Shown: one piece after another, positions 3,836 to 62,180 of the stretch
How the letters are laid out: every line of letters begins with the position of its first letter
Position numbering within the stretch: the first letter of the stretch is position 1
Assembly (NCBI RefSeq): GCF_903915725.1
Contig: NZ_CAIWTY010000106.1
Coordinates: 124,001 to 188,000 of the forward strand
Reading direction: 5' to 3'
DNA: 64,000 bases
From: an uncultured Rhodopila sp.
GTDB lineage: Bacteria; Pseudomonadota; Alphaproteobacteria; Acetobacterales; Acetobacteraceae
The notes under the pieces: model-generated
What the model was told of the DNA's origin: nothing
What the model saw: the letters and a program-made list of their open reading frames with translations, nothing else
The model's database searches: none
Position numbers and translations under genes: made by a program

Positions 3836-4246
3836 CGGGTCCCGGATCACTGCGCGGGCTCGGTGACCAGGCCCGCGCGAGAACGCGGGTTACGGCTTCG
3901 GACGGGAAGCGGCTCAGGCTTCATTGTGGTTTCCTCCCGCCGGGGTGGGACGCGATGCGTCGTCCCCGGCCTTCTTGTCGACATCGGCGGTTTGCGGCGA
4001 TCGATTGTAGAATAGTGATACCGCTTTACCGTTTTTCAGGACGTTTTTCAGCGAGGCTACATCCGCACATCGAAGCACCCGGCGCATTGATCTAGATCAA
4101 TTTATTGCAACGAATCCGCGGCTGATCGATACGATTGACGATGCCAGGGCCGGTCTGAAAAACGGCTGTTGCGGCCTGCTCGCATCGGCGATAACGTTGC
4201 GCAGCCGATCGAACCTCGATCGAGATCCATGCGGGGATTTTCGGAC
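3836..4246. other. Intergenic region with repeated operator-like motifs
   Basis: No gene is supported in this 411-base stretch. It holds two direct copies of CGTTTTTCAG (4030-4039, 4042-4051), one inverted copy CTGAAAAACGG (4155-4165), and a perfect FNR-type box (4087-4100). The spacing suggests a complex promoter region for the methyltransferase downstream. An in-frame TTG extension of the methyltransferase begins at 4169 but has no coding character before 4229. Confidence 0.5.
4087..4100. promoter_or_regulatory. FNR/FnrN-type binding site
   Basis: TTGATCTAGATCAA is a perfect 14-base palindrome matching the FNR-family consensus TTGAT-N4-ATCAA. It lies 147 bases upstream of the methyltransferase start. 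An identical 14-mer occurs at 36048-36061. A four-cysteine FnrN-type regulator with an E-x-x-S-R recognition helix is encoded at 15389-16123 and is the obvious candidate to bind it. Confidence 0.75.
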
Positions 4247-5260
4247 ATGAGCAGCGCAGCACCCACGCCGGAACGCATCCTCCAGATCGCCTGGTCCTTC
4301 GCACCGCCGCTGGTGATCGAGGCCGCCGTGCGCCACAGGGTCTTCGACATCCTGGCCAGGCAACCGCTGACACTGGACGGATTGGCGAAGGCAACCGGCG
4401 CCTCCAGCCGCGGCCTCGGCGCCATCGCCAACGTCCTGACGGGAATCGGGCTGTTGTCGCGCGACGAGGCCGGACAATTCAGCCTCACCCCCGAATCCGC
4501 CGCCTTCCTGGTCAGCGATCAGCCCGGGTATATCGGTGGAATCTTCCGCCACGCCAGCGAGCAGCTGCTGCCGAACTGGCTGCACCTGACCGAGATCGTC
4601 GGCGGCGGCAAGCCGGCTCGATCGCTGGAAGGCGCCGAGACCAGCGCGGCATTCTTTGCGGACTTCGTCGAGGACATCTTTCCGCTCAGCTACCCGGCGG
4701 CGCGCGCCCTGGCCGAGGCGCTGGAAATCGCGCAAGCCACCGCGCCGGTAAAGGTGCTCGACCTGGGCGCGGGCGCGGGCGTCTGGGGGATTGCTTTGGC
4801 GCAGGCATCGCCGCACGTCTCGGTGCGCGCCATCGATTGGCCCGACGTGCTGCCCGTCACCACCCGGGCCTTCGCCCGCTTCGGCCTGTCGCAGCGGCTG
4901 ACCGCCGTCGGCGGTGACCTGGCGGACGCGGATTTCGGCACCGGCCATCAGGTGGCGACCATCGGACAGATCCTGCACAGCGAGGGCGTTGAACGCTCCC
5001 GCGCGCTGTTGCGGCGGACGCACGCGGCGCTCGCCCCCGGCGGCACCGTCGCCATCGCCGAGTTCCTGGTCAACGCCGATCGGCGGGGGCCGATGAACGG
5101 GCTGATCTTCGCGGTGAACATGCTGGTGAACACCGAGGTGGGCGGCACGTATGCGTTCGAGGAGATCGCCGGCTGGCTGACCGAGGCCGGCTTCGTCAAC
5201 CCGCGGCTGCTGCCCGCCCCGGGGCCGTCGCCGCTGATCCTGGCAACCGCGGCCGGGTGA
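4247..5260 (+). CDS. SAM-dependent O-methyltransferase-like protein with winged-helix N-terminal domain
   Basis: Class I S-adenosylmethionine methyltransferase of about 337 aa. The N-terminal part (ILQIAWSFAPPLVIEAAVRHRVFDIL, LTLDGLAKATGAS) is the winged-helix dimerisation domain of plant-type and bacterial small-molecule O-methyltransferases. The SAM site is VLDLGAGAGVWGIALAQ at about residues 171-187, with the acidic RAIDWPDV and the post-I motif following. Substrate unknown; close relatives act on phenolics, carotenoids or polyketides. I chose ATG 4247 (MSSAAPTPER) because GGGGA precedes it; ATG 4229 is the alternative. The perfect FNR-type box upstream suggests oxygen-dependent expression. 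The stop is followed 65 bases later by an SDR gene on the same strand. Confidence 0.8.
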   Translation: MSSAAPTPERILQIAWSFAPPLVIEAAVRHRVFDILARQPLTLDGLAKATGASSRGLGAIANVLTGIGLLSRDEAGQFSLTPESAAFLVSDQPGYIGGIFRHASEQLLPNWLHLTEIVGGGKPARSLEGAETSAAFFADFVEDIFPLSYPAARALAEALEIAQATAPVKVLDLGAGAGVWGIALAQASPHVSVRAIDWPDVLPVTTRAFARFGLSQRLTAVGGDLADADFGTGHQVATIGQILHSEGVERSRALLRRTHAALAPGGTVAIAEFLVNADRRGPMNGLIFAVNMLVNTEVGGTYAFEEIAGWLTEAGFVNPRLLPAPGPSPLILATAAG

Positions 5261-15388: not shown

Positions 15389-16123
15389 TTAGTTGAACGA
15401 CGAGGCACCGTCCGCGATTAGTTTGAGCGCGGACGGATGCCGGATCGTCACCTCCGACGCATTGCGGATTTCGATGACCGCGGATTTACGCAATGCGGTG
15501 AACTCCCGGCTGACGGTTTCGATCGTCAGTCCCAGGTAATCCGCAATATCCGCCCGGGACATGGACAGGGACAGCCCGTCGCTGTCGCGAGTCGCAAGCA
15601 CCAAGGCAGCCCGGGATCTGAGAAACGAGGCTACGCGCTCACGTGCGGTCTTACGGCCGAGCAGCAGCATCTGCTCCTGCGCGACGACCAGTTCATTGGA
15701 TGCTTGTTCCAGCAGACGGCGTTCCAGAGCCGGGAAGTCGTCGAGGAAAGCCCGGAGGCGCGGGCGGGAGAAGCGGCAGGCGCGAACCGGCTCCAGCGCC
15801 TCCGCCGAGAATGCGTAGGTGCGTCCGGCGGCGAGACCCAGGAAGTCTCCGGCCTGCACGAACCCGGTTATCTGCCGCCGTCCGTCCGGTAGCAGCTTGT
15901 AAACCTTGGCCGAACCCTCGGTCAGATTGAAGAAATGCTCCGCCGACTCGCCTTCATGGATAAACCCGATGCCGGCGCCGATCTCGACCACCGTGGCCAG
16001 ACCCGCCAGCCGCGAAAGGGCCTCGCTGTCGAGCACGCTACAGAAGCTCAATGCCCGCGCGTTGCACGACAGGCATCCCGCCAGCGAGCTTTTGCCCATC
16101 GGTAACGTCGCCAGCGAGATCAT
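15389..16123 (-). CDS. FnrN-type oxygen-sensing Crp/Fnr regulator
   Basis: 244-aa transcription factor. Cysteines C17, C20 and C28 (CLSCNARALSFC) plus C116 (RACRF) form the ligand set of the oxygen-labile 4Fe-4S cluster of FnrN/FnrL proteins. The cyclic-nucleotide-like sensor fold covers ~30-150, and the helix-turn-helix is SMSRADIADYLGL with recognition helix ETVSREF. That E-x-x-S-R pattern reads TTGAT half-sites, and two perfect TTGAT-N4-ATCAA boxes occur in this window at 4087 and 36048. The start at 16123 has GGAAGGG seven bases upstream; a frame extending to 16174 is less likely. It probably controls the electron-transfer locus at 32-40 kb (inference). An imperfect hairpin CGTAG ... CTACG lies at 16147-16182. 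Confidence 0.9.
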   Translation of the reverse strand: MISLATLPMGKSSLAGCLSCNARALSFCSVLDSEALSRLAGLATVVEIGAGIGFIHEGESAEHFFNLTEGSAKVYKLLPDGRRQITGFVQAGDFLGLAAGRTYAFSAEALEPVRACRFSRPRLRAFLDDFPALERRLLEQASNELVVAQEQMLLLGRKTARERVASFLRSRAALVLATRDSDGLSLSMSRADIADYLGLTIETVSREFTALRKSAVIEIRNASEVTIRHPSALKLIADGASSFN

Positions 16124-32559: not shown

Positions 32560-32934
32560 CTATTTCGCCGTGGCGAGGAAGGCGATGAGATTCGCGCGTT
32601 GGGTGGCGTCCTTCAGGCCCGGATACGGCATGATGGTCTTCGGCACCACCGCCTGCGGATTGGTGATGTAGGCATCCAGCGTTGCCTCATCCCAGGTCTT
32701 TCCCGACGCCTTGTTCGCCGGGGAATATTTGAACCCTGGCACCTGTCCGGCCTCGCGGCCGACGATGCCGAACAGGCTCGGTCCGACGATATTCTTGCCC
32801 TCGTCCACGGAGTGACAACCGGCGCATTGCGTCTTGAATACGATTGCCCCGGCCGCGGCATCCTGTGCGCTGGCAGAGCCAGCCCAGGCCCAAGCCCCGG
32901 TCGAAACGATAGCCGCCAGCAATAGATGCCTCAT
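32560..32934 (-). CDS. Class I cytochrome c (cytochrome c2/c550-like)
   Basis: 124-aa periplasmic electron carrier. Signal peptide MRHLLLAAIVSTGAWAWAGSASA; haem c attachment CAGCH at ~residue 38; axial Met in TIMPYPG. The body (VGPSLFGIVGREAGQVPGF, YITNPQAVVPKTIMPYPGL, LIAFLATAK) is that of mitochondrial-type cytochrome c. Paralogues are at 33425 and 38936. ATG 32934 is chosen because the signal peptide begins there. It lies alone, separated from the next cytochrome by a 490-base region with a perfect hairpin and a MITE. Confidence 0.92.
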   Translation of the reverse strand: MRHLLLAAIVSTGAWAWAGSASAQDAAAGAIVFKTQCAGCHSVDEGKNIVGPSLFGIVGREAGQVPGFKYSPANKASGKTWDEATLDAYITNPQAVVPKTIMPYPGLKDATQRANLIAFLATAK

Positions 32935-33424: not shown

Positions 33425-33427
33425 TTA
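33252..33427. mobile_element. MITE-like element, copy A
   Basis: About 176 bases bounded by inverted termini: TTATACACAAACCGGCG on the left and CGCCGGCTGGTATTA on the right (33413-33427). Inside is GTTGACTTTGACC, a REP-like double palindrome (33301-33382) and GCGCCCGAGAGTCA. Copy B at 36273-36445 has the same ends and order. The right end supplies the TAA stop codon of the cytochrome c gene at 33425. No transposase is encoded. Confidence 0.7.
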
Positions 33428-33805
33428 GTGGTGCAGCGTCGACAGATACGCGATGATGTCGAGGCGCTTCTGTAGATCCGGCTGTCCGGGATAGCCCATC
33501 TTCGTGCCGGGCACGAGCGCCTGCGGCTTCCTCAGATAGACCTCCAGAACGTCGGGCGTCCAGGTGATCCCGGACTTGATGTTGGCCTCGCTATAGGCGT
33601 AGCCGGGCTCCATGCCGCTGTGGCGGCCGACGACGCCGTACAGCGAGGGGCCGACCTTGGCCTTGTGCTCAATGTTGGTGTGGCACAAGGTGCAGATCGA
33701 ATTGAACAGAGCTTTGCCGGCTTCCGGATCGCCGCCGGCGCGGGCGGACCCGCTGAACACGGCGGCGGAAGCAAGGATCAATGCGGCGAGAGAGACACGT
33801 TTCAT
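33425..33805 (-). CDS. Class I cytochrome c
   Basis: 126-aa periplasmic haem protein. Signal peptide MKRVSLAALILASAAVFSGSARA; haem site CTLCH; axial Met in GTKMGYPG; body VGPSLYGVVGRHSGMEPGYAYSEAN typical of cytochrome c2/c550. It starts 42 bases after the hemerythrin-like gene stop, so the two are cotranscribed. The same gene pair is repeated at 38936-39914. Its TAA stop lies inside the terminal inverted repeat of the adjacent MITE. Likely carries electrons between the Cyc2-like outer-membrane protein and inner-membrane partners (inference). Confidence 0.93.
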   Translation of the reverse strand: MKRVSLAALILASAAVFSGSARAGGDPEAGKALFNSICTLCHTNIEHKAKVGPSLYGVVGRHSGMEPGYAYSEANIKSGITWTPDVLEVYLRKPQALVPGTKMGYPGQPDLQKRLDIIAYLSTLHH

Positions 33806-33847: not shown

Positions 33848-34387
33848 TTATTGCGCCGGGAGTTTCTCGCGCAGGAACTCGCCGATCAGCAGCACGGTCG
33901 GCTCGGTGATATCGACGTCGGCGAGGTCGTCAGCCGCGAGGTCGGAGGCAAATCCCTCGACGCTGGCGTCATGTTCCTGCTGCCCGGCGTCCTTCAGGGC
34001 GATGAAGGCTTCGGTCAGGCGTTGGTGCGTCGCCCGGACCGTTTCCTGCTCCGCCTTCAGCTTATCGGCGTCCGCAATCGCCCATTTCATGTCGGGCGAA
34101 ACCTTGCCGGCAGCCAGCGCCGGAAGCAGGGTCAGCGGCGGCAGGATGAATTCATCTTCCGCCTCCATATGCCCTTTGAACGCCTCGATCAGATTTTTCG
34201 CCGCGGCGCCGACCGGCCCGGGCCGCTCCGCGAGCTTGGTCAGATAGGCGATGTCGCCCTCGTGCTCCATCTCCTCGGACGGCGGGATGTCCTTGCCGGG
34301 CTGGGCGCTGGCGGAGCCGAGCAGGCCGGGCACGACGAGCGTGCAGCCCAGCAGCATCGCGGCGATGGGGATTGTTTTCAGATTCAT
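33848..34387 (-). CDS. Periplasmic hemerythrin-like protein (copy 1)
   Basis: 179 aa with a signal peptide (MNLKTIPIAAMLLGCTLVVPGLLGSASA). Four helices are predicted. The first carries His in EEMEHEGDIAYL, the second carries GHMEAEDEFILPPL (the H-x3-E pattern of HHE hemerythrins), and the third carries RATHQRL. The expected fourth-helix His is missing. It is 34% or more similar by eye to the protein at 39354 (shared GPVGxAAK, EFILPPLTLLP, GKVxPDM). AAGGAAG precedes ATG 34387. Possible roles: di-iron oxygen or NO binding, metal handling, or electron transfer with the adjoining cytochrome c. The family assignment is tentative. Confidence 0.65.
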   Translation of the reverse strand: MNLKTIPIAAMLLGCTLVVPGLLGSASAQPGKDIPPSEEMEHEGDIAYLTKLAERPGPVGAAAKNLIEAFKGHMEAEDEFILPPLTLLPALAAGKVSPDMKWAIADADKLKAEQETVRATHQRLTEAFIALKDAGQQEHDASVEGFASDLAADDLADVDITEPTVLLIGEFLREKLPAQ

Positions 34388-34526
34388 GGCACTTCCTTTT
34401 CTTGGCTCTGTGGCGGACACGGGTGGAGCGCGCTCTCTCAACGCGGGTCCGGATTAGCGGTAAAGCGTTATTTCGGCAAACCGGCAACTGCGGCGGAACA
34501 TGTACATAAAATGATTGTTTGCACAG

Positions 34527-34564: not shown

Positions 34565-35992
34565 TCAGAAAATCATCCAGGCGAACAACATCAGAGCGTT
34601 GTTGTCACCCGCGTTGCGGCCGAAGCCATCGTAGTTCTTCGTGCCGCCGTTGAACTGCGTATAGACGATGTACTGCACGCCGACCTTGAAGTTCGCCAGC
34701 GGGCGCCACAACGAGTCCTCCTTGCCGAAGGGAACCCAGTCCGCCTCGATAATGAAGTCGTTGCTGTTCGGCTTGCCGTTGGCGCTGCCTGACAGCGGCT
34801 GGCCGGTGTTATACAGGACCTGGTTCGCGGCCCCCCACGACTTTTGCCAGCCGAGCGTCAGGCCGTAGGTGTTTTTATACCAATAGGAGACGTTGGCCTG
34901 GAACGTGTTAAGGCCGTAGTTCGAGCCCACCGCCGTTCCGTTAGCAGCGTTATAGGCGCCGGACGACGCGTTCAGGTTCTGGTTCTCGTGCGTGTAAATG
35001 GCCTGCGCGGTGGCGATGTGGGTGCCGTCTCCCAGGAACTGATACCCGGCGTCGAGAGAGTAATCGGTGTAGCGGTCCTGGCCGAAGGCGTTGCTTGTTG
35101 CGAATGTATCGACCGTCGGATTGACGTCCGCATACATGAACGTCCCGCCGACATGGGCCTGCTGGTCGTTCCACTGCCATTGGTAAGCGGCGCGGAGATA
35201 AGGTGCGGGGCTGACGGTGTTGCCGATGCCGAAGCCGTTGCCGACGCGGCCGAGCGCCCAGGAACTCAGGCTGCTGTAGAAACCGCCTTCGAGGTACAGC
35301 GAGCTATCGTACCACGCATAGGCCGTGTAGCCGATGGCGTTCTGGTTGAATCCGGTGGACAGCATCACGTCGGCGGTCGGGGTCGGCGCAAGCTTGGAAC
35401 TAATATACGGGAAGCTCCAGGCATAGGTGGTGTTGAACGGATCCTGCACATACGGGTTGTTGTTGATCGTCGTGCCGACCCGGAGTTGCTTGTCGCCGAT
35501 GTCGAAGGTTGTGGTGTACGGGACGATGTCGGTGTTGTCCCAGTTGAACTCATTGCCATCCTGCGAATAGGTCACCGCCTGGATGAAGGCGCCGCTGTGC
35601 TCGCCGATGTTGCCGCCGATGAACAGGCTGACCTGGTCGAACGCGGCGGTATTGTTGTAGCCATAGGGCGCACCGGGGCTGGTGCCGCTCGGCAACGACT
35701 TGTTGACGTTGGTGAAGGTCGGCTGGACCATGATCGCGACCGGTACGTGCGACACCCAGCCCTCACCACCGGTGATGGTGTAGCCGCTCATTTTGAATTC
35801 CCGTCCGAACGGGGTGAGCTGCGGGCCGTAAGCGCCGATATGACACTGGATGCAAGGATAGCCGGTTTGCGCGGCGAAAGCCGGGATCGCCTGGGCCGGC
35901 CTGGATGCCGGCAGCAGCGCGGCGAGCGCGAGCACAAATATCCCGAACCAAGTCGGGCCGACTCCGGACGGAGTTCGGGATTTAGCAGTCAT
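34565..35992 (-). CDS. Cyc2-like outer-membrane cytochrome-porin fusion
   Basis: 475 aa. A signal peptide (ALAALLPASRPAQA) is followed at once by one haem c site in AIPAFAAQTGYPCIQCH. Next comes LTPFGREFKMSGYTITGG, then ~400 residues of alternating aromatic/polar beta strands ending in Phe (ALMLFAWMIF), the hallmark of an outer-membrane barrel. The N-terminal P-x-F-A-x-Q-T-G-x-x-C-x-x-C-H block, the FGR-x-FK-x-GY block, the size and the barrel match Cyc2, the outer-membrane Fe(II) oxidase of iron-oxidising bacteria. Divergent Cyc2-like proteins of unknown donor also exist, so iron oxidation is a hypothesis. A perfect FNR-type box lies 56 bases upstream; cytochrome c and hemerythrin-like genes follow. 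Confidence 0.8.
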   Translation of the reverse strand: MTAKSRTPSGVGPTWFGIFVLALAALLPASRPAQAIPAFAAQTGYPCIQCHIGAYGPQLTPFGREFKMSGYTITGGEGWVSHVPVAIMVQPTFTNVNKSLPSGTSPGAPYGYNNTAAFDQVSLFIGGNIGEHSGAFIQAVTYSQDGNEFNWDNTDIVPYTTTFDIGDKQLRVGTTINNNPYVQDPFNTTYAWSFPYISSKLAPTPTADVMLSTGFNQNAIGYTAYAWYDSSLYLEGGFYSSLSSWALGRVGNGFGIGNTVSPAPYLRAAYQWQWNDQQAHVGGTFMYADVNPTVDTFATSNAFGQDRYTDYSLDAGYQFLGDGTHIATAQAIYTHENQNLNASSGAYNAANGTAVGSNYGLNTFQANVSYWYKNTYGLTLGWQKSWGAANQVLYNTGQPLSGSANGKPNSNDFIIEADWVPFGKEDSLWRPLANFKVGVQYIVYTQFNGGTKNYDGFGRNAGDNNALMLFAWMIF

Positions 35993-36047: not shown

Positions 36048-36061
36048 TTGATCTAGATCAA
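36048..36061. promoter_or_regulatory. FNR/FnrN-type binding site upstream of the Cyc2-like gene
   Basis: TTGATCTAGATCAA, identical to the box at 4087-4100 and a perfect TTGAT-N4-ATCAA palindrome. Its centre is about 62 bases before the start codon on the minus strand, the right place for activation of a promoter near 36010. The FnrN-type protein at 15389-16123 is the likely regulator. Confidence 0.78.
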
Positions 36062-36507: not shown

Positions 36508-37932
36508 TTACCCGTAGTCAAACAGCGCCATGAACCCGAAGTCCATATGCAACTGCTGATGGCAGTGAAACAGCGACGGTCCAGGATTGCCGGCCACGAA
36601 ATCGAATGCCAGCTCCTGGAACCCGCCCAGCATCGCTACGTCCTTCACCACGCCTGACGTCGCCTTGCCGCCGATATGCGCCAGTTCGAAGCTGTGCCGG
36701 TGCAGGTGCACGGGATGGATGTCGTCGCTCGCGTTCCGCAGCTTCACCCGGTAGCGGCGCCCCTCATGCAGCGTGAAACCCGGCTTCATCGAGTCCATTG
36801 AGAAAGCTTCGCCATTGATCGTCCATCGGTTGAAGCCGTTCAGCGCGCCGTTGTGCTTCACGATGGTCATCTCGATGGTTTCATCCGGAACGGCTGCCGC
36901 GCCGGAGCGGCCGAACCGCGCGTAATCCCAATGGAACGGCTTCGGCTTCCGCCACGCCGGCTTGCCGCCCCGTCCCGCATACTCGACGACAACGCCCATG
37001 CCATGGCCGCGGTCGTCGTCGGCGAGATCGCCCATCACCCAGACGCCGGGATGGTTCATTGCCACCACCGCCGACACCCGCTCCGCCGTGCCGAGCCACA
37101 ACACCGGCACGTCCGCCTGAACCGGCACCGGATTGCCGTCCAGCGCGATCACCCGAAACACGTGCCCTGGCAGCGCCAGGCTGCGGATCTCGGTGGCGCT
37201 GGCGTTCAGCACATGGAACAGAACCCGCTCCCCCGGCTTCACCCGGATCGGCTCGCCATGACCGAGCATCCGCCCGTTGATGCTGAACAGGTCGTAGCTG
37301 ACCTCGAATCCCTTGGCCTTTTCGTCCGCCGCGTCATCCGCCGCCAGCCCCATGCGTTGCAGTGCGGGCAACGGGGTGCCGGCCAGCGCATCCATATCCA
37401 TGTCGCCGCCGCGGCTGAAAACCGGGGCGAATTCCTTCAGCACCAGGAAGATTTCGCGGTCATAGGCGCCGGGGTTGTCTTTCGGCTCGATATAGACCGG
37501 CCCGGCCAGCCCGGTGTAGCTGCCGCGGTTGAGGTCGCCGTAGGCCGGGACATGCGTGTGGTAGAAGCGGAAGCCCGCCGGCTTCGGCTCGAAAGCGACG
37601 CGGCGCATGCCATGCGGCGGAATGAATGGGGAGCCTTCCTCGGACGCGCCGTCCACGTCCGGCGGGATTGTCTGGCCGTGCCAGTGCACCAGTTCCGGCG
37701 TGTCGGTGTCGTTATGGATATCGACAGTAACCCGCCTGCCCTCCCGCATGCGCAGCAGAGGGCCGGGAAACTGGCCGTTATACAGGGTCGTCGAGATGGT
37801 ATGGTCCGGCGCCAGTTCGATCAGCCCCGTCGCGATGCGCAGCGTGTGATCAGCCGGAGTCTGGCCAAAAGCCGGCACGCCGCCCGCCAGAACCATTGCC
37901 CCGGCCTGCTGCAGCAGCGAACGACGGTTCAT
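36508..37932 (-). CDS. Multicopper oxidase, Tat-exported
   Basis: 474 aa. Signal MNRRSLLQQAGAMVLAGGVPAFG has a twin-arginine start, suiting folded, copper-loaded export. All four copper-ligand blocks are intact: HWHGQTIPPDVDG, FYHTHVPAYGD, HPVHLHRHSFEL and HCHQQLHMDFGFM (the type 1 and trinuclear sites). Three cupredoxin domains, laccase/CueO-like. It would oxidise a metal ion, phenol or cytochrome and reduce oxygen to water. It is the last gene of a five-gene operon (hemerythrin-like, cytochrome c, two membrane proteins, MCO), with 80 bases before it. ATG 37932 is where the Tat signal begins. A metal-oxidising role tied to the Cyc2-like protein is attractive but unproven. Confidence 0.9.
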   Translation of the reverse strand: MNRRSLLQQAGAMVLAGGVPAFGQTPADHTLRIATGLIELAPDHTISTTLYNGQFPGPLLRMREGRRVTVDIHNDTDTPELVHWHGQTIPPDVDGASEEGSPFIPPHGMRRVAFEPKPAGFRFYHTHVPAYGDLNRGSYTGLAGPVYIEPKDNPGAYDREIFLVLKEFAPVFSRGGDMDMDALAGTPLPALQRMGLAADDAADEKAKGFEVSYDLFSINGRMLGHGEPIRVKPGERVLFHVLNASATEIRSLALPGHVFRVIALDGNPVPVQADVPVLWLGTAERVSAVVAMNHPGVWVMGDLADDDRGHGMGVVVEYAGRGGKPAWRKPKPFHWDYARFGRSGAAAVPDETIEMTIVKHNGALNGFNRWTINGEAFSMDSMKPGFTLHEGRRYRVKLRNASDDIHPVHLHRHSFELAHIGGKATSGVVKDVAMLGGFQELAFDFVAGNPGPSLFHCHQQLHMDFGFMALFDYG

Positions 37933-38012
37933 GGCAATCTCCCCTATCCGGCGGCTCACGCATGCGCCATCACGATAGAACGGGCCGTGGGTCAACTCAT
38001 CGCGGTCCGTGA

Positions 38013-38363
38013 TTACAACGCCTGCAGCCAATCCATAACCGGAGGAAACGTCAACAGCAGTCCGGCGATCAGCATCAGCGCCGAGGCCAGGTTCACCCAC
38101 AGCAGGCTGATGTCACGAGACGCCCAGCGCCGGGACAGCACAAACCAGACCGCCAGCCAGACGGCGATGCCTGCCGTGCTGACGCCGGACAAGGCTCCGG
38201 ACGGCTTCCAGATCGCGAGCGCGTGGTTGATTGCCGGGACGGCATCGGCGGCGAAGGCGAAGACGCCGAAGGCGCAGGAGCCGATCGCCGCCGACAGGAT
38301 CGCCGCGGCGCCGGGACCGTTGCGCAACAACGCCGGGGGCGGCGAAGGCAGGGTGTCGGCCAT
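38013..38363 (-). CDS. Small inner-membrane protein of the MCO operon
   Basis: 116 aa with about three or four hydrophobic helices (AAAILSAAIGSCAFGVFAF, STAGIAVWLAVWFVL, LWVNLASALMLIAGLLLTFPPV). One His (INHALAIW) lies in the first loop. No family recognised. It starts one base after the preceding 188-aa membrane gene stops, so the two are tightly coupled and may form one complex. Confidence 0.7.
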   Translation of the reverse strand: MADTLPSPPPALLRNGPGAAAILSAAIGSCAFGVFAFAADAVPAINHALAIWKPSGALSGVSTAGIAVWLAVWFVLSRRWASRDISLLWVNLASALMLIAGLLLTFPPVMDWLQAL

Positions 38364-38364
38364 G

Positions 38365-38931
38365 CTACTTGTTCTCGTACAGGATGATTTGCGCCCCGCC
38401 CCTGACCGGCGCGTTCTTGTTCAGGAACGCGCCAACCCCGCCGGCAACCGCGGTGGCGAAGAAGGCAACCGCCGTGAAACTCAGCACCGCGGCACGCAGC
38501 GAGCGGTGCAGCGCCAACTGCGGGCCGTATTTGATGAATACATAAGCAACCATCGTCATCGCGATCGGCGTGAACCAGGCGATGTGCTCCTTCCATTCCA
38601 TTCCCAGCTCATGCCATCCCGAGGTCAACGGGCTCGATAGCAGCAGGCTGCGCGGATAGAGCGACAGGTCCGTCGTCCCCTCCGGCGGAGCGGCGCGATA
38701 CCAGGGATAGATGATGTAGGCCCCTGACAGCACGGTCAGCCACGCCAGCACCGCCATGCTGATCAGGTAGAAGCGGAACATCCGGGTTTCCCACCGCGAC
38801 GGCTGAACGCGCGGGCCGGCGGCCGAGGTGGCGTAGAGCACCCCGATCGCGCCGGAGAACGCCAGCATGAACACGGCGCCGAAGCCCATGCCGTGCAGCA
38901 CCGTGATCAGGTCGCGGTAGGAGATCTCCAT
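38365..38931 (-). CDS. Membrane protein with conserved-looking histidines, possible b-haem or quinol subunit
   Basis: 188 aa, four predicted transmembrane helices (TVLHGMGFGAVFMLAFSGAIG, FYLISMAVLAWLTVLSGAYI, IAWFTPIAMTMVAYVFIKYG, VLSFTAVAFFATAVAGGVGAF). Histidines sit at membrane edges (LHGMGFG, WHELGMEWKEHIAWF), a layout compatible with haem b or quinone binding. The periplasmic loop YPWYRAAPPEGTTDL is long. No family recognised. It is placed between cytochrome c and the 116-aa membrane protein in the MCO operon, suggesting an electron entry or exit module in the inner membrane (inference). Confidence 0.72.
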   Translation of the reverse strand: MEISYRDLITVLHGMGFGAVFMLAFSGAIGVLYATSAAGPRVQPSRWETRMFRFYLISMAVLAWLTVLSGAYIIYPWYRAAPPEGTTDLSLYPRSLLLSSPLTSGWHELGMEWKEHIAWFTPIAMTMVAYVFIKYGPQLALHRSLRAAVLSFTAVAFFATAVAGGVGAFLNKNAPVRGGAQIILYENK

Positions 38932-38935
38932 CGCT

Positions 38936-39328
38936 CTATTTCAGCGTATCGAGATACGCGATCAGGTCCGCCCGTTTGGTCGCGTCCTTGACGCCGGCAT
39001 AGGCCATCTTCGTTCCGGGGATGACAGTGCGCGGCGCTGCCAGGTATGCGTCGAGTTCGGCGTCGGTCCAGGTGATGTTGGCGGCCAGATTGGCCGGGGA
39101 GTAGGTGTACTCGGGCACCGAGCCGGTCTTGCGGCCGACGACGCCGAACAGGGTCGGGCCGACCTTGTTGTCGCCCGCTCGGTTCGCGTGGCAGACGACA
39201 CAGGCGGATTGGAACACCGCCTTGCCCGCGACGGGGTCGCCGGCAAGGGCGGAGCCCGGCATCAGGAGGCTGCCGAAAACAGCGGCGGTCAGGCTGGTGA
39301 ATGCGACGCGCGCTTGACGCACAGTCAT
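38936..39328 (-). CDS. Class I cytochrome c
   Basis: 130-aa periplasmic cytochrome. The leader is VRQARVAFTSLTAAVFGSLL, ending near MPGSALA. Haem site CVVCH; axial Met in GTKMAYAG; VGPTLFGVVGRKTGSVPEYTY body. Closely similar to the products of 32560 and 33425. GGGAGA precedes ATG 39328. It lies 25 bases after the hemerythrin-like gene and 4 bases before the 188-aa membrane protein gene, so it is inside a five-gene operon. Probably shuttles electrons between the membrane subunits and the multicopper oxidase (inference). Confidence 0.93.
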   Translation of the reverse strand: MTVRQARVAFTSLTAAVFGSLLMPGSALAGDPVAGKAVFQSACVVCHANRAGDNKVGPTLFGVVGRKTGSVPEYTYSPANLAANITWTDAELDAYLAAPRTVIPGTKMAYAGVKDATKRADLIAYLDTLK

Positions 39329-39353
39329 GGTCGATCTCCCTCTCAGCACGCGA

Positions 39354-39914
39354 TTAATGAGCAGCCGGCAGCTTGGCGCGCAGCGTGTCGCCAATCATCA
39401 GGATCGCCGGTTCCAGGATTTCCAGGTCGGTCAGCGAATCGCCGGCCGCCGATTCGGCGAACTCCTTGGCGTCGTTGTCGTTGGCCTCGACCGCGGCGAC
39501 GAGCAGGGCGTTGAGCGCTTCCGTGGTCTCCGCATGCTCGTCGAAGATCTGCTCGCGCTCGGCCCTGACTCGATCCGTCATCGGCAGCGCCCAGGCCATG
39601 TCCGGAGTCACCTTCCCGTCGGCGATCAGCGGCAGCAACGTCAGCGGCGGCAGGATGAACTCCCGCTCACGCGCGTAGTGCTTTTCCAGCAGCGCCAGTG
39701 CTTCCTTCGCCGCGGGTCCGACCGGTGCCGGCTTCGCGGTCAGGGCTGTGAGTTGTTCGATGGTTTCCTTCTGCTCGATCCGCAGCGCTTGCGGGATAGG
39801 ATGCACCTGCGCCGCCGCGGGTGAGGCCTGCGCGAACGCCGCGCCGGACGGTATCATCCAGGATACGGTGGCGAGCGCCACGATTCCGAAAACTGTTGGC
39901 GATCTTGGATGCAT
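39354..39914 (-). CDS. Periplasmic hemerythrin-like protein (copy 2)
   Basis: 186 aa with a signal peptide (FGIVALATVSWMIPSGAAFA). Paralogue of the 33848 protein: shared GPAAKEAL, EKHYAREREFILPPLTLLP, GKVTPDMAW, FDEHAETTEAL. The helix-one His of copy 1 is absent here (RIEQKETIEQL), so the di-iron site is more degenerate or built differently. GGAGGA lies eight bases before ATG 39914. First gene of the operon running to the multicopper oxidase; an 11-base-spaced repeat GCAATTGT is 130 bases upstream. Confidence 0.65.
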   Translation of the reverse strand: MHPRSPTVFGIVALATVSWMIPSGAAFAQASPAAAQVHPIPQALRIEQKETIEQLTALTAKPAPVGPAAKEALALLEKHYAREREFILPPLTLLPLIADGKVTPDMAWALPMTDRVRAEREQIFDEHAETTEALNALLVAAVEANDNDAKEFAESAAGDSLTDLEILEPAILMIGDTLRAKLPAAH

Positions 39915-40139: not shown

Positions 40140-40153
40140 TTGATCCTGCTCAA
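40140..40153. promoter_or_regulatory. Near-consensus FNR-like box
   Basis: TTGATCCTGCTCAA matches TTGAT-N4-ATCAA with one mismatch. It is about 225 bases from the MCO-operon start and 334 from groEL, so direct action on either is uncertain. Confidence 0.35.
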
Positions 40154-40170: not shown

Positions 40171-42072
<1,902 letters not shown>

Positions 42073-61481: not shown

Positions 61482-62180
61482 ATGCCAAGTCGCGCCGCGC
61501 AACGCGATGCGCTGCTGAGCTGCACGCTGTTCACGGCGATGCGGCCGGAGGAGATCGACCGGATCCTGACCATGGGATCGGAACGTTCCTATCGCCGCGG
61601 CCAGATGATTTTTCAAAAGGGCGATACCGCCTCGTCAATGATGGCGGTGCTGAGAGGATCGGTGCGCATCAGTAGCGGTTCGGCGGACGGCAAGGAGGTC
61701 ACGCTGAACACGATACGAACCGGCGAGGTGTTCGGCGAGATCGCGCTGCTCGACGGCCGCCCGCGCAGCGCCGACGCAACCGCGGCGGAAGACAGCGATC
61801 TGCTGGCGATCGAGCGGCGGCATTTCATGCCGTATCTGCTGGCCAACCAGGATCTGATGGTGCGCATGCTGGCGGTGCTATGCCAGCGTCTGCGCCAGAC
61901 CAGCGACGCGCTGAGCGACGTCGTCATGCTCGACCTGCCCGGCCGCCTCGCCAGGCTGCTGCTGCGGCTGGCGGAAGACCACGGCAGCGCCACCCCGGCG
62001 GGCACCCGCATCGAGTTCAAGCTGTCGCAGCGCGATATTGGCACGCGCGTCGCCTCGAGCCGGGAGAGCGTCAACAAGCAATTGCAGGTCTGGCGCGACG
62101 CCGATTGGCTGTCAGTCGAACGCGGCTACATCACGCTGCGCCACCCGGAGCGGCTGCGCCGGATGTGCGAGACCGAGTGA
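61482..62180 (+). CDS. Crp/Fnr family transcriptional regulator
   Basis: 232-aa regulator. The cNMP-binding-like domain contains YRRGQMIFQKGDTASSMMAVL and GEVFGEIALLDGRPRSADATA, which closely follows the cAMP-pocket signature of CRP (FGEIALLDGxPRSA). The helix-turn-helix is LSQRDIGTRVASSRESVNKQL. Only one cysteine precedes the sensor domain, so it is not an Fe-S FNR. Divergent from the serine hydrolase operon. Its last 69 bases overlap the 3-prime end of the convergent TIGR04282-type gene. Confidence 0.88.
   Translation: MPSRAAQRDALLSCTLFTAMRPEEIDRILTMGSERSYRRGQMIFQKGDTASSMMAVLRGSVRISSGSADGKEVTLNTIRTGEVFGEIALLDGRPRSADATAAEDSDLLAIERRHFMPYLLANQDLMVRMLAVLCQRLRQTSDALSDVVMLDLPGRLARLLLRLAEDHGSATPAGTRIEFKLSQRDIGTRVASSRESVNKQLQVWRDADWLSVERGYITLRHPERLRRMCETE

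Follow-up and report, generated by a model that had tools for sequence, protein, structure and literature searches.

A Cyc2-like cytochrome-porin gene beneath a conserved FNR-type box in a Rhodopila-like alphaproteobacterium

The gene considered here lies at 34565–35992 of a 64-kb window (the whole stretch of DNA analysed) from a Rhodopila-like alphaproteobacterium, and its closest described counterparts are the Cyc2 proteins of Mariprofundus and Acidithiobacillus. What is said below of each cited paper refers to the portion of its text that was available. Cyc2 is defined in PMC8406198 by the motif AXPXFAR[Q/K][T/Y], a CXXCH haem site and a PXL 4 residues downstream; Cyc2 proteins of demonstrated activity oxidise Fe(II), and the function of distant homologues is called uncertain. 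Homologues with an adjoining mono- or dihaem cytochrome c, for which a periplasmic cytochrome link is proposed, have been described in Acetobacteraceae (PMC10715153), and the Cyc2 of Acidithiobacillus has been linked to homologues in Rhodanobacteraceae, Acidiphilium and Acidocella (PMC10654088). From an acidic lake, transcripts for Fe(II) oxidation that map to Rhodopila have been described, and the iron-oxidation gene named there is cyc2 (PMC8305228).

In A. ferrooxidans the rus operon is controlled by RegBA, and TTGATN4ATCAA was not seen in those rus promoter stretches that are printed in the available portion of PMC5506826; the family of the window gene, by contrast, has a conserved FNR-type box. 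PioABC of Rhodopseudomonas palustris TIE-1 (PMC3050613) resembles the present locus in three respects: an alphaproteobacterial phototroph as host, a class II promoter of the CRP/FNR family and an outer-membrane conduit for Fe(II). It differs in employing a separate decahaem cytochrome and porin, where the window encodes a fused monohaem protein, and in having FixK as its regulator. The available text of PMC10715153 makes no mention of FNR-type control, or of hemerythrin-like, membrane or multicopper partners, for the Acetobacteraceae homologues.

The window encodes a real, well-conserved Cyc2-like conduit in an apparently new regulatory and genomic setting, with iron use predicted from sequence. 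With a probability of roughly 0.55, we read it as an outer-membrane conduit, induced at low oxygen, that links iron outside the cell to cytochrome c in the periplasm and that more probably oxidises Fe(II).

A fused monohaem cytochrome-porin

The open reading frame, which like all features below lies on the minus strand unless stated otherwise, starts with ATG and encodes 475 amino acids ending in LFAWMIF. Read by eye, residues 1–35 (35888–35992) form a putative signal peptide with its boundary between AQA and IP, where the AlphaFold2 model places a helix at residues 13–25; the sequence that follows is AIPAFAAQTGYPCIQCHIGAYGPQLTPFGREFKMSGY. A single CxxCH is present close to the N-terminus, as CIQCH at residues 47–51 (35840–35854). 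The remainder, residues 85–475 (34568–35740), is predicted to form a beta barrel of 16 long strands ending in the C-terminal Phe (mean pLDDT 89.1, pTM 0.86), for which solved porins are the structural matches. Signal peptide, lone haem site and terminal-Phe barrel had all been proposed by a first-pass annotation of this DNA, and the 16-strand barrel for which it suggested a structural test is predicted by the model.

Searches by sequence of Pfam, NCBIfam and the PDB returned no family for the protein. A homologue search over 5.8 billion proteins found 1704 relatives in 7996 scored candidates. Among the best 120 of these 1704 relatives, all 120 carry CxxCH in the same context, which answers the earlier concern that the motif might not be conserved, and C47, C50 and H51 are invariant in both alignments (A1, 37 rows; A4, 91 rows). 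A fused monohaem cytochrome-porin architecture is supported, and the haem site is conserved in the family. Covalent attachment of the haem and an outer-membrane location would be expected from this architecture.

How close is this protein to Cyc2 itself? It shares with the Cyc2 of PMC8406198 the signal peptide, the single N-terminal CxxCH in an AxPxFAxQT...PxL...FK context, the fused 16-strand barrel with its likeness to OprP/OprO, and the frequently adjoining cytochrome c gene; its 475 residues exceed the 365 asked as a minimum. The counterpart of the first motif reads AIPAFAAQT (35864–35890), Ala replacing Arg, and PQL starts six residues past the haem His, compared with four in the relatives L084–L086. 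The strict form of the first motif is found in 17 of 83 family rows, the window being counted twice among them, as WIN and as L001. Because FAR[QK][TY] is absent and PxL is shifted, we call the protein Cyc2-like: close to Cyc2, and Cyc2-like in working, yet not filed as Cyc2. The fused monohaem porin of the earlier Cyc2 assignment therefore stands, and the strict motif does not.

The same departures bear on another explanation, that of a porin whose redox or structural haem serves outside iron energy metabolism, for instance with another extracellular donor or as a redox-gated channel. The uncertain function of distant Cyc2 homologues (PMC8406198), the unmatched strict motif, and a short cytochrome domain beside a dominant barrel would all suit such a protein, but the haem site is invariant and adjoining haem-c genes occur far above control, and we judge this explanation quite unlikely.

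In a tree of 78 proteins, the window protein groups with two Rhodopila metagenome-assembled genomes (MAGs) and then with R. globiformis (L010), in keeping with the alphaproteobacterial host that had been suggested, and the Rhodanobacteraceae rows form a sister branch to those of Acetobacteraceae, which, given the homologues linked to Acidithiobacillus Cyc2 in that family (PMC10654088), ties the window protein to Cyc2 indirectly. The closest relatives among those listed are Rhodopila MAG proteins at 92 and 90% identity to the window protein, and two homologues at 59 and 57% (L010 and L041) occur in Rhodopila globiformis DSM 161. Two long branches, L084 and L085, meet in the tree, and their joining is not interpreted.

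Two matches call for separate comment. That on an A. ferrooxidans YQ-N3 plasmid (L085) was considered as a canonical Cyc2 and set aside, its figures being equal to those of match H6 on an Acidiphilium cryptum JF-5 plasmid in score, E-value and length, which suggests a shared or mislabelled plasmid. The host genome itself holds a partial second Cyc2-like copy (L002, C82:78525–79346), 38% identical over residues 192–475 and with one internal TAG; no CxxCH motif was seen within the stretch examined.

The FNR-type box and its candidate regulators

A perfect palindrome, TTGATCTAGATCAA, stands at 36048–36061, with a 55-base spacer before the ATG and its centre 62.5 bases before it. The first-pass annotation had picked out this box and had proposed low-oxygen expression from it; the box is indeed perfect, and low-oxygen control is what its conservation, together with an FNR gene in the same window, would predict. 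The window has five sites with at most one mismatch, whereas 100 shuffles gave 0.85 on average and never as many as five. Conservation among relatives is the more stringent evidence. Of 80 family genes considered, 75 had enough upstream sequence; a box with at most one mismatch precedes 51 of these 75 compared with 45 of 1033 control regions, and a perfect box precedes 26 compared with 19. The controls were taken from upstream of the other genes at these loci, and many of their matches adjoin the focal gene. Admitting the FixK-like form TTGAYN4RTCAA brings the family count to 57 of 75.

Relatedness does not explain this conservation away, because the box is still carried by 12 of 20 groups when one protein is taken per identity group at 60% (21 of 35 at 70%). 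It spans two deep branches, occurring in Acetobacteraceae, in Rhodanobacter and Oleiagrimonas, and in a Thiomonas MAG; a MAG labelled Terriglobia has it with one mismatch.

In class II activation by FNR, the −10 element is expected about 29–30 bases after the box centre. Over the 51 boxed sites, −10-like similarity peaks at offset 29, with a mean of 2.37 out of 6 (45 offsets tested), and the largest maximum obtained in 300 shuffles was 1.94. A scan for consensus promoters gave 2 sites where 1.7 were expected, none of them at the gene, and is uninformative for a class II promoter. An FNR/FixK-family regulator would, on this arrangement, activate the gene when oxygen is low, through a class II promoter with the box near −41.5.

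One candidate regulator is encoded within the window at 15389–16123 (L116), about 20 kb from the Cyc2-like gene. It matches PF13545, carries CLSCNARALSFC and a further Cys beyond it, and has a recognition helix that reads ETVSR. Among 11 PF13545 matches in the genome, ExxSR is present in three (L112, L116 and L118), and L116 combines it with N-terminal cluster cysteines, features that we take to be the marks of FNR and on which its reading as FNR is based. The box may be bound by this protein or by another ExxSR protein, L112 or L118.

Further elements of this kind are present in the window. Another perfect copy of TTGATCTAGATCAA, the same at all 14 bases, lies at 4087–4100 ahead of a plus-strand reading frame (4169–5260) that by eye encodes a methyltransferase, and another DNA-binding domain of the CRP/FNR family, without ExxSR, is found at 61941–62165 on the plus strand (L114).

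Neighbouring genes and their recurrence

Small cytochromes c and hemerythrin-like four-helix proteins flank the Cyc2-like gene on both sides. These neighbours had been recognised previously; members of the set that had gone unmentioned, at 36508–38931, are a multicopper oxidase and a pair of small membrane proteins. Downstream lie a periplasmic, helical, hemerythrin-like protein (33848–34387, starting MNLKTIPI) and a monohaem cytochrome c (33425–33805; Pfam Cytochrom_C 30.5 bits), with another monohaem cytochrome c at 32560–32934 (starting MRHLLLAAIV; 39.2 bits). The upstream run comprises the multicopper oxidase (36508–37932, starting MNRRSLLQQ, with a twin-arginine-like leader and Pfam Cu-oxidase, Cu-oxidase_2 and Cu-oxidase_3 matches), membrane proteins of 116 amino acids (38013–38363; cluster 15 in relatives) and 188 amino acids (38365–38931; four helices), neither with a Pfam match, a monohaem cytochrome c (38936–39331, starting MTVRQARVAF; 33.8 bits) and a second hemerythrin-like protein (39354–39914, starting MHPRSPTVFG), 39% identical to the first. 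An imperfect FNR-type box with one mismatch (40140–40153) precedes this run, 39914–36508, and may equally serve the divergent gene beyond it, a plus-strand frame at 40177–42072 that by eye encodes GroEL. Among the 44 Acetobacteraceae-type loci described below, 9 have a member of this frame's cluster close to the Cyc2-like gene.

Several of these proteins retain candidate metal or cofactor ligands. The two hemerythrin-like proteins score 17.5 and 13.6 bits against Pfam Hemerythrin (PF01814), below its cut-off of 25.3, and are for that reason named hemerythrin-like only. In their family, at least 99% of 121 sequences retain each of H48, H79, E83, H127, D163 and E168 (numbered on window frame 33848–34405). 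Set beside what we take to be the ligands of hemerythrin, the HxxxE of helix B is retained and helix D supplies Asp and Glu, so that a carboxylate-richer diiron site is plausible. The host genome has a third gene of this family outside the window, at C47:69715–70233. The multicopper oxidase retains all four copper-binding stretches (HWHG, HTH, HPVHLH and HCHQQLH); by comparison with CueO, Phe523 presumably occupies the axial position of the type 1 copper, which by analogy would mean a high potential. The 188-residue protein belongs to a family for which Pfam has no model and which counts 4326 relatives at E ≤ 0.001. Two of its His residues, H13 and H107, are invariant and a third, H116, is kept in 93%, and it carries a WHxxGMEWKEH stretch; its predicted structure was poor (pLDDT 55.9) and was not used for fold search, and any function involving haem or quinone is conjectural.

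To what extent do these neighbours recur? Reading frames of 87 loci were clustered by BLASTP and counted within 7 kb of the gene; loci are frequently cut by contig ends, and the counts are lower bounds. The 44 Acetobacteraceae-type loci (L003–L043, L056, L074 and the window) were grouped by identity rank, not taxonomy. In these, the small cytochrome c cluster is found near the gene in 33, the hemerythrin-like protein in 17 and a 114-residue membrane protein in 6, compared with 5, 0 and 0 of the other 41 loci, 4 of which have dihaem cytochromes of another cluster nearby. L005 and L007 have the full order of Cyc2-like, hemerythrin-like, cytochrome c, 188-residue, 114-residue and multicopper oxidase genes; in the window the partner run stands upstream of the Cyc2-like gene and a second hemerythrin-like/cytochrome pair downstream. 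Elsewhere, plasmid copies in Polymorphobacter, Methylocystis and the A. ferrooxidans plasmid adjoin c-type cytochromes, and the Caballeronia plasmid copy adjoins a high-potential iron–sulfur protein (HiPIP) and a cytochrome c.

Co-occurrence was also counted in whole genomes, with P values that take no account of genome relatedness. Among 299 family genomes, the hemerythrin-like gene is present in 13, of which 10 also have the Cyc2-like gene (Fisher P 1.5e-4), and the 188-residue gene in 11, of which 8 do (P 0.0014). The three hemerythrin-like exceptions are G507, whose Cyc2-like pieces all lie at contig edges, and G520 and G629, whose matches are weak. The partner genes are a recurring, non-random set in Acetobacteraceae-type loci.

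Such partners could also serve iron protection. The multicopper oxidase and a carboxylate-rich hemerythrin-like protein would then act in the periplasm as ferroxidase and store of iron, and at low oxygen, where Fe(II) persists, the Cyc2-like protein would shed electrons. The intact copper-ligand stretches, the conserved His, Glu and Asp set and the 10-of-13 co-occurrence would all be in keeping with this, but for most of the family, and for every one of the 41 loci beyond the Acetobacteraceae-type group, the gene has no such partners nearby, and we regard iron protection as very improbable.

Direction of electron flow and significance

The conduit we favour would function as follows. A short N-terminal monohaem c domain, in or under the 16-strand barrel, would let the Cyc2-like protein pass electrons, in one direction or the other, between dissolved iron outside the cell and carriers in the periplasm; the adjoining monohaem cytochromes c would accept or donate them on the periplasmic side; and the hemerythrin-like protein, the four-helix membrane protein and the multicopper oxidase would handle iron or relay electrons. 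In the favoured, inward direction, Fe(II) oxidation would feed the cytochrome c pool and thence a terminal oxidase or, the genome being that of a phototroph, its reaction centre. We infer iron as substrate, the direction and every electron-transfer step; what was observed is the architecture, the conserved haem site and box, the recurring neighbours, and the FNR and reaction-centre genes of the genome.

The regulation is equally suited to the opposite flow. In an outward conduit, electrons of the quinone pool would pass under anoxia through periplasmic cytochrome c and the Cyc2-like protein to extracellular Fe(III), and induction by FNR/FixK would be ordinary control of an anaerobic reductase, as the conserved boxes allow. 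In the review PMC8790237, Norris et al. 2018 is credited with detecting Cyc2B and Cyc1B in anaerobically adapted, ferric-reducing Acidithiobacillus ferrooxidans, Cyc2 is said to have been proposed as a terminal ferric reductase, and Acidiphilium is listed among ferric reducers; PMC10715153 gathers the Acetobacteraceae homologues with Cyc2B. Cyc2B and Cyc1B resemble the present system, compared by description only, in pairing a Cyc2-type protein with a cytochrome partner in anaerobic growth, and differ in their association with Fe(III) reduction in A. ferrooxidans. Yet the active Cyc2 proteins oxidise Fe(II) (PMC8406198), the multicopper oxidase present in some loci hints at a setting that is oxidative or uses oxygen, and the literature covered contained no mention of Rhodopila reducing Fe(III). 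Low-oxygen control is in itself no argument against oxidation, because the Fe(II)-oxidation operon of PMC3050613 is under a class II FixK box. Outward flow is possible though on balance unlikely, and inward flow has about twice its odds.

The host genome encodes reaction-centre L and M type genes and three RuBisCO-family genes, along with a HiPIP-like gene barely above its Pfam cut-off (23.2 against 22 bits), and a phototrophic role had been suggested on first reading. After five of 84 gene-matching genomes with short or contig-edge matches were dropped (G407, G412, G507, G583 and G613), the Cyc2-like gene is present in 79 of the 299 family genomes: 30 with both gene and reaction centre, 49 with the gene only, 67 with the reaction centre only and 153 with neither. 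It thus occurs in 30 of 97 genomes with a reaction centre and 49 of 202 without. Because gene and reaction centre are unassociated across these genomes, a phototrophic role is possible in this host, with its reaction-centre and RuBisCO genes, but not specific; photoferrotrophy as the specific role is not supported, though not rejected outright. A search for MtrB/PioB found no match anywhere and hence carries no weight.

Several observations weigh against an FNR-controlled, Fe(II)-oxidising conduit. FNR-type control suits Fe(III) reduction no less than Fe(II) oxidation and leaves the direction unfixed. Association with the reaction centre was not seen in the 299 family genomes (odds ratio 1.40, P 0.26), a point that also lends itself to outward flow. 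The host genome, in a further difference from the described Cyc2 systems, has no match to rusticyanin, and across 398 genomes weak matches to it appear in 51, none above the cut-off. Neither form of the box is present in 18 of the 75 relatives, L083–L086 included, and the boxless rows include those from Caballeronia, Methylocystis, Polymorphobacter and the Acidithiobacillus plasmid. The window's own −10 candidates, at offset 29 or 32, match at only 3 of 6 bases, and AIPAFAAQT departs from the strict Cyc2 motif. Among the partners, the multicopper oxidase is near the gene in 5 of 44 Acetobacteraceae-type loci and the 188-residue protein in 9, and both in 0 of the other 41.

A more elaborate form of the favoured reading can be envisaged, in which Rhodopila-type Acetobacteraceae possess a distinct FNR-controlled, low-oxygen module for extracellular iron, without rusticyanin or decahaem cytochromes, as a separate iron-oxidation route in phototrophic and non-phototrophic members. 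The Cyc2-type conduit would there pass its electrons on to a carboxylate-ligated hemerythrin-like diiron protein of the periplasm, monohaem cytochromes c, a new kind of four-helix membrane redox protein linked to the quinone pool, and a high-potential multicopper oxidase. We offer this tentatively, as unlikely to hold in its entirety.

The conserved FNR-type box and the recurring partner set appear new within the open-licence literature, where neither FNR/FixK control of a Cyc2-type gene (in the portions of text available) nor a Cyc2 with multicopper oxidase and hemerythrin partners was found. The analysis also yields candidates for partners in the periplasm and the membrane, including the membrane family of 4326 proteins that lacks a Pfam model, and Rhodopila globiformis DSM 161 is one culturable host of homologues. 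If the favoured reading is true, Cyc2-type iron use in many bacteria of acid environments would be oxygen-switched through the FNR/FixK regulon, like the unrelated PioABC. Box and gene together would then provide a cheap marker separating low-oxygen iron metabolism from chance homologues, useful precisely where the function of distant Cyc2 homologues is called uncertain (PMC8406198).
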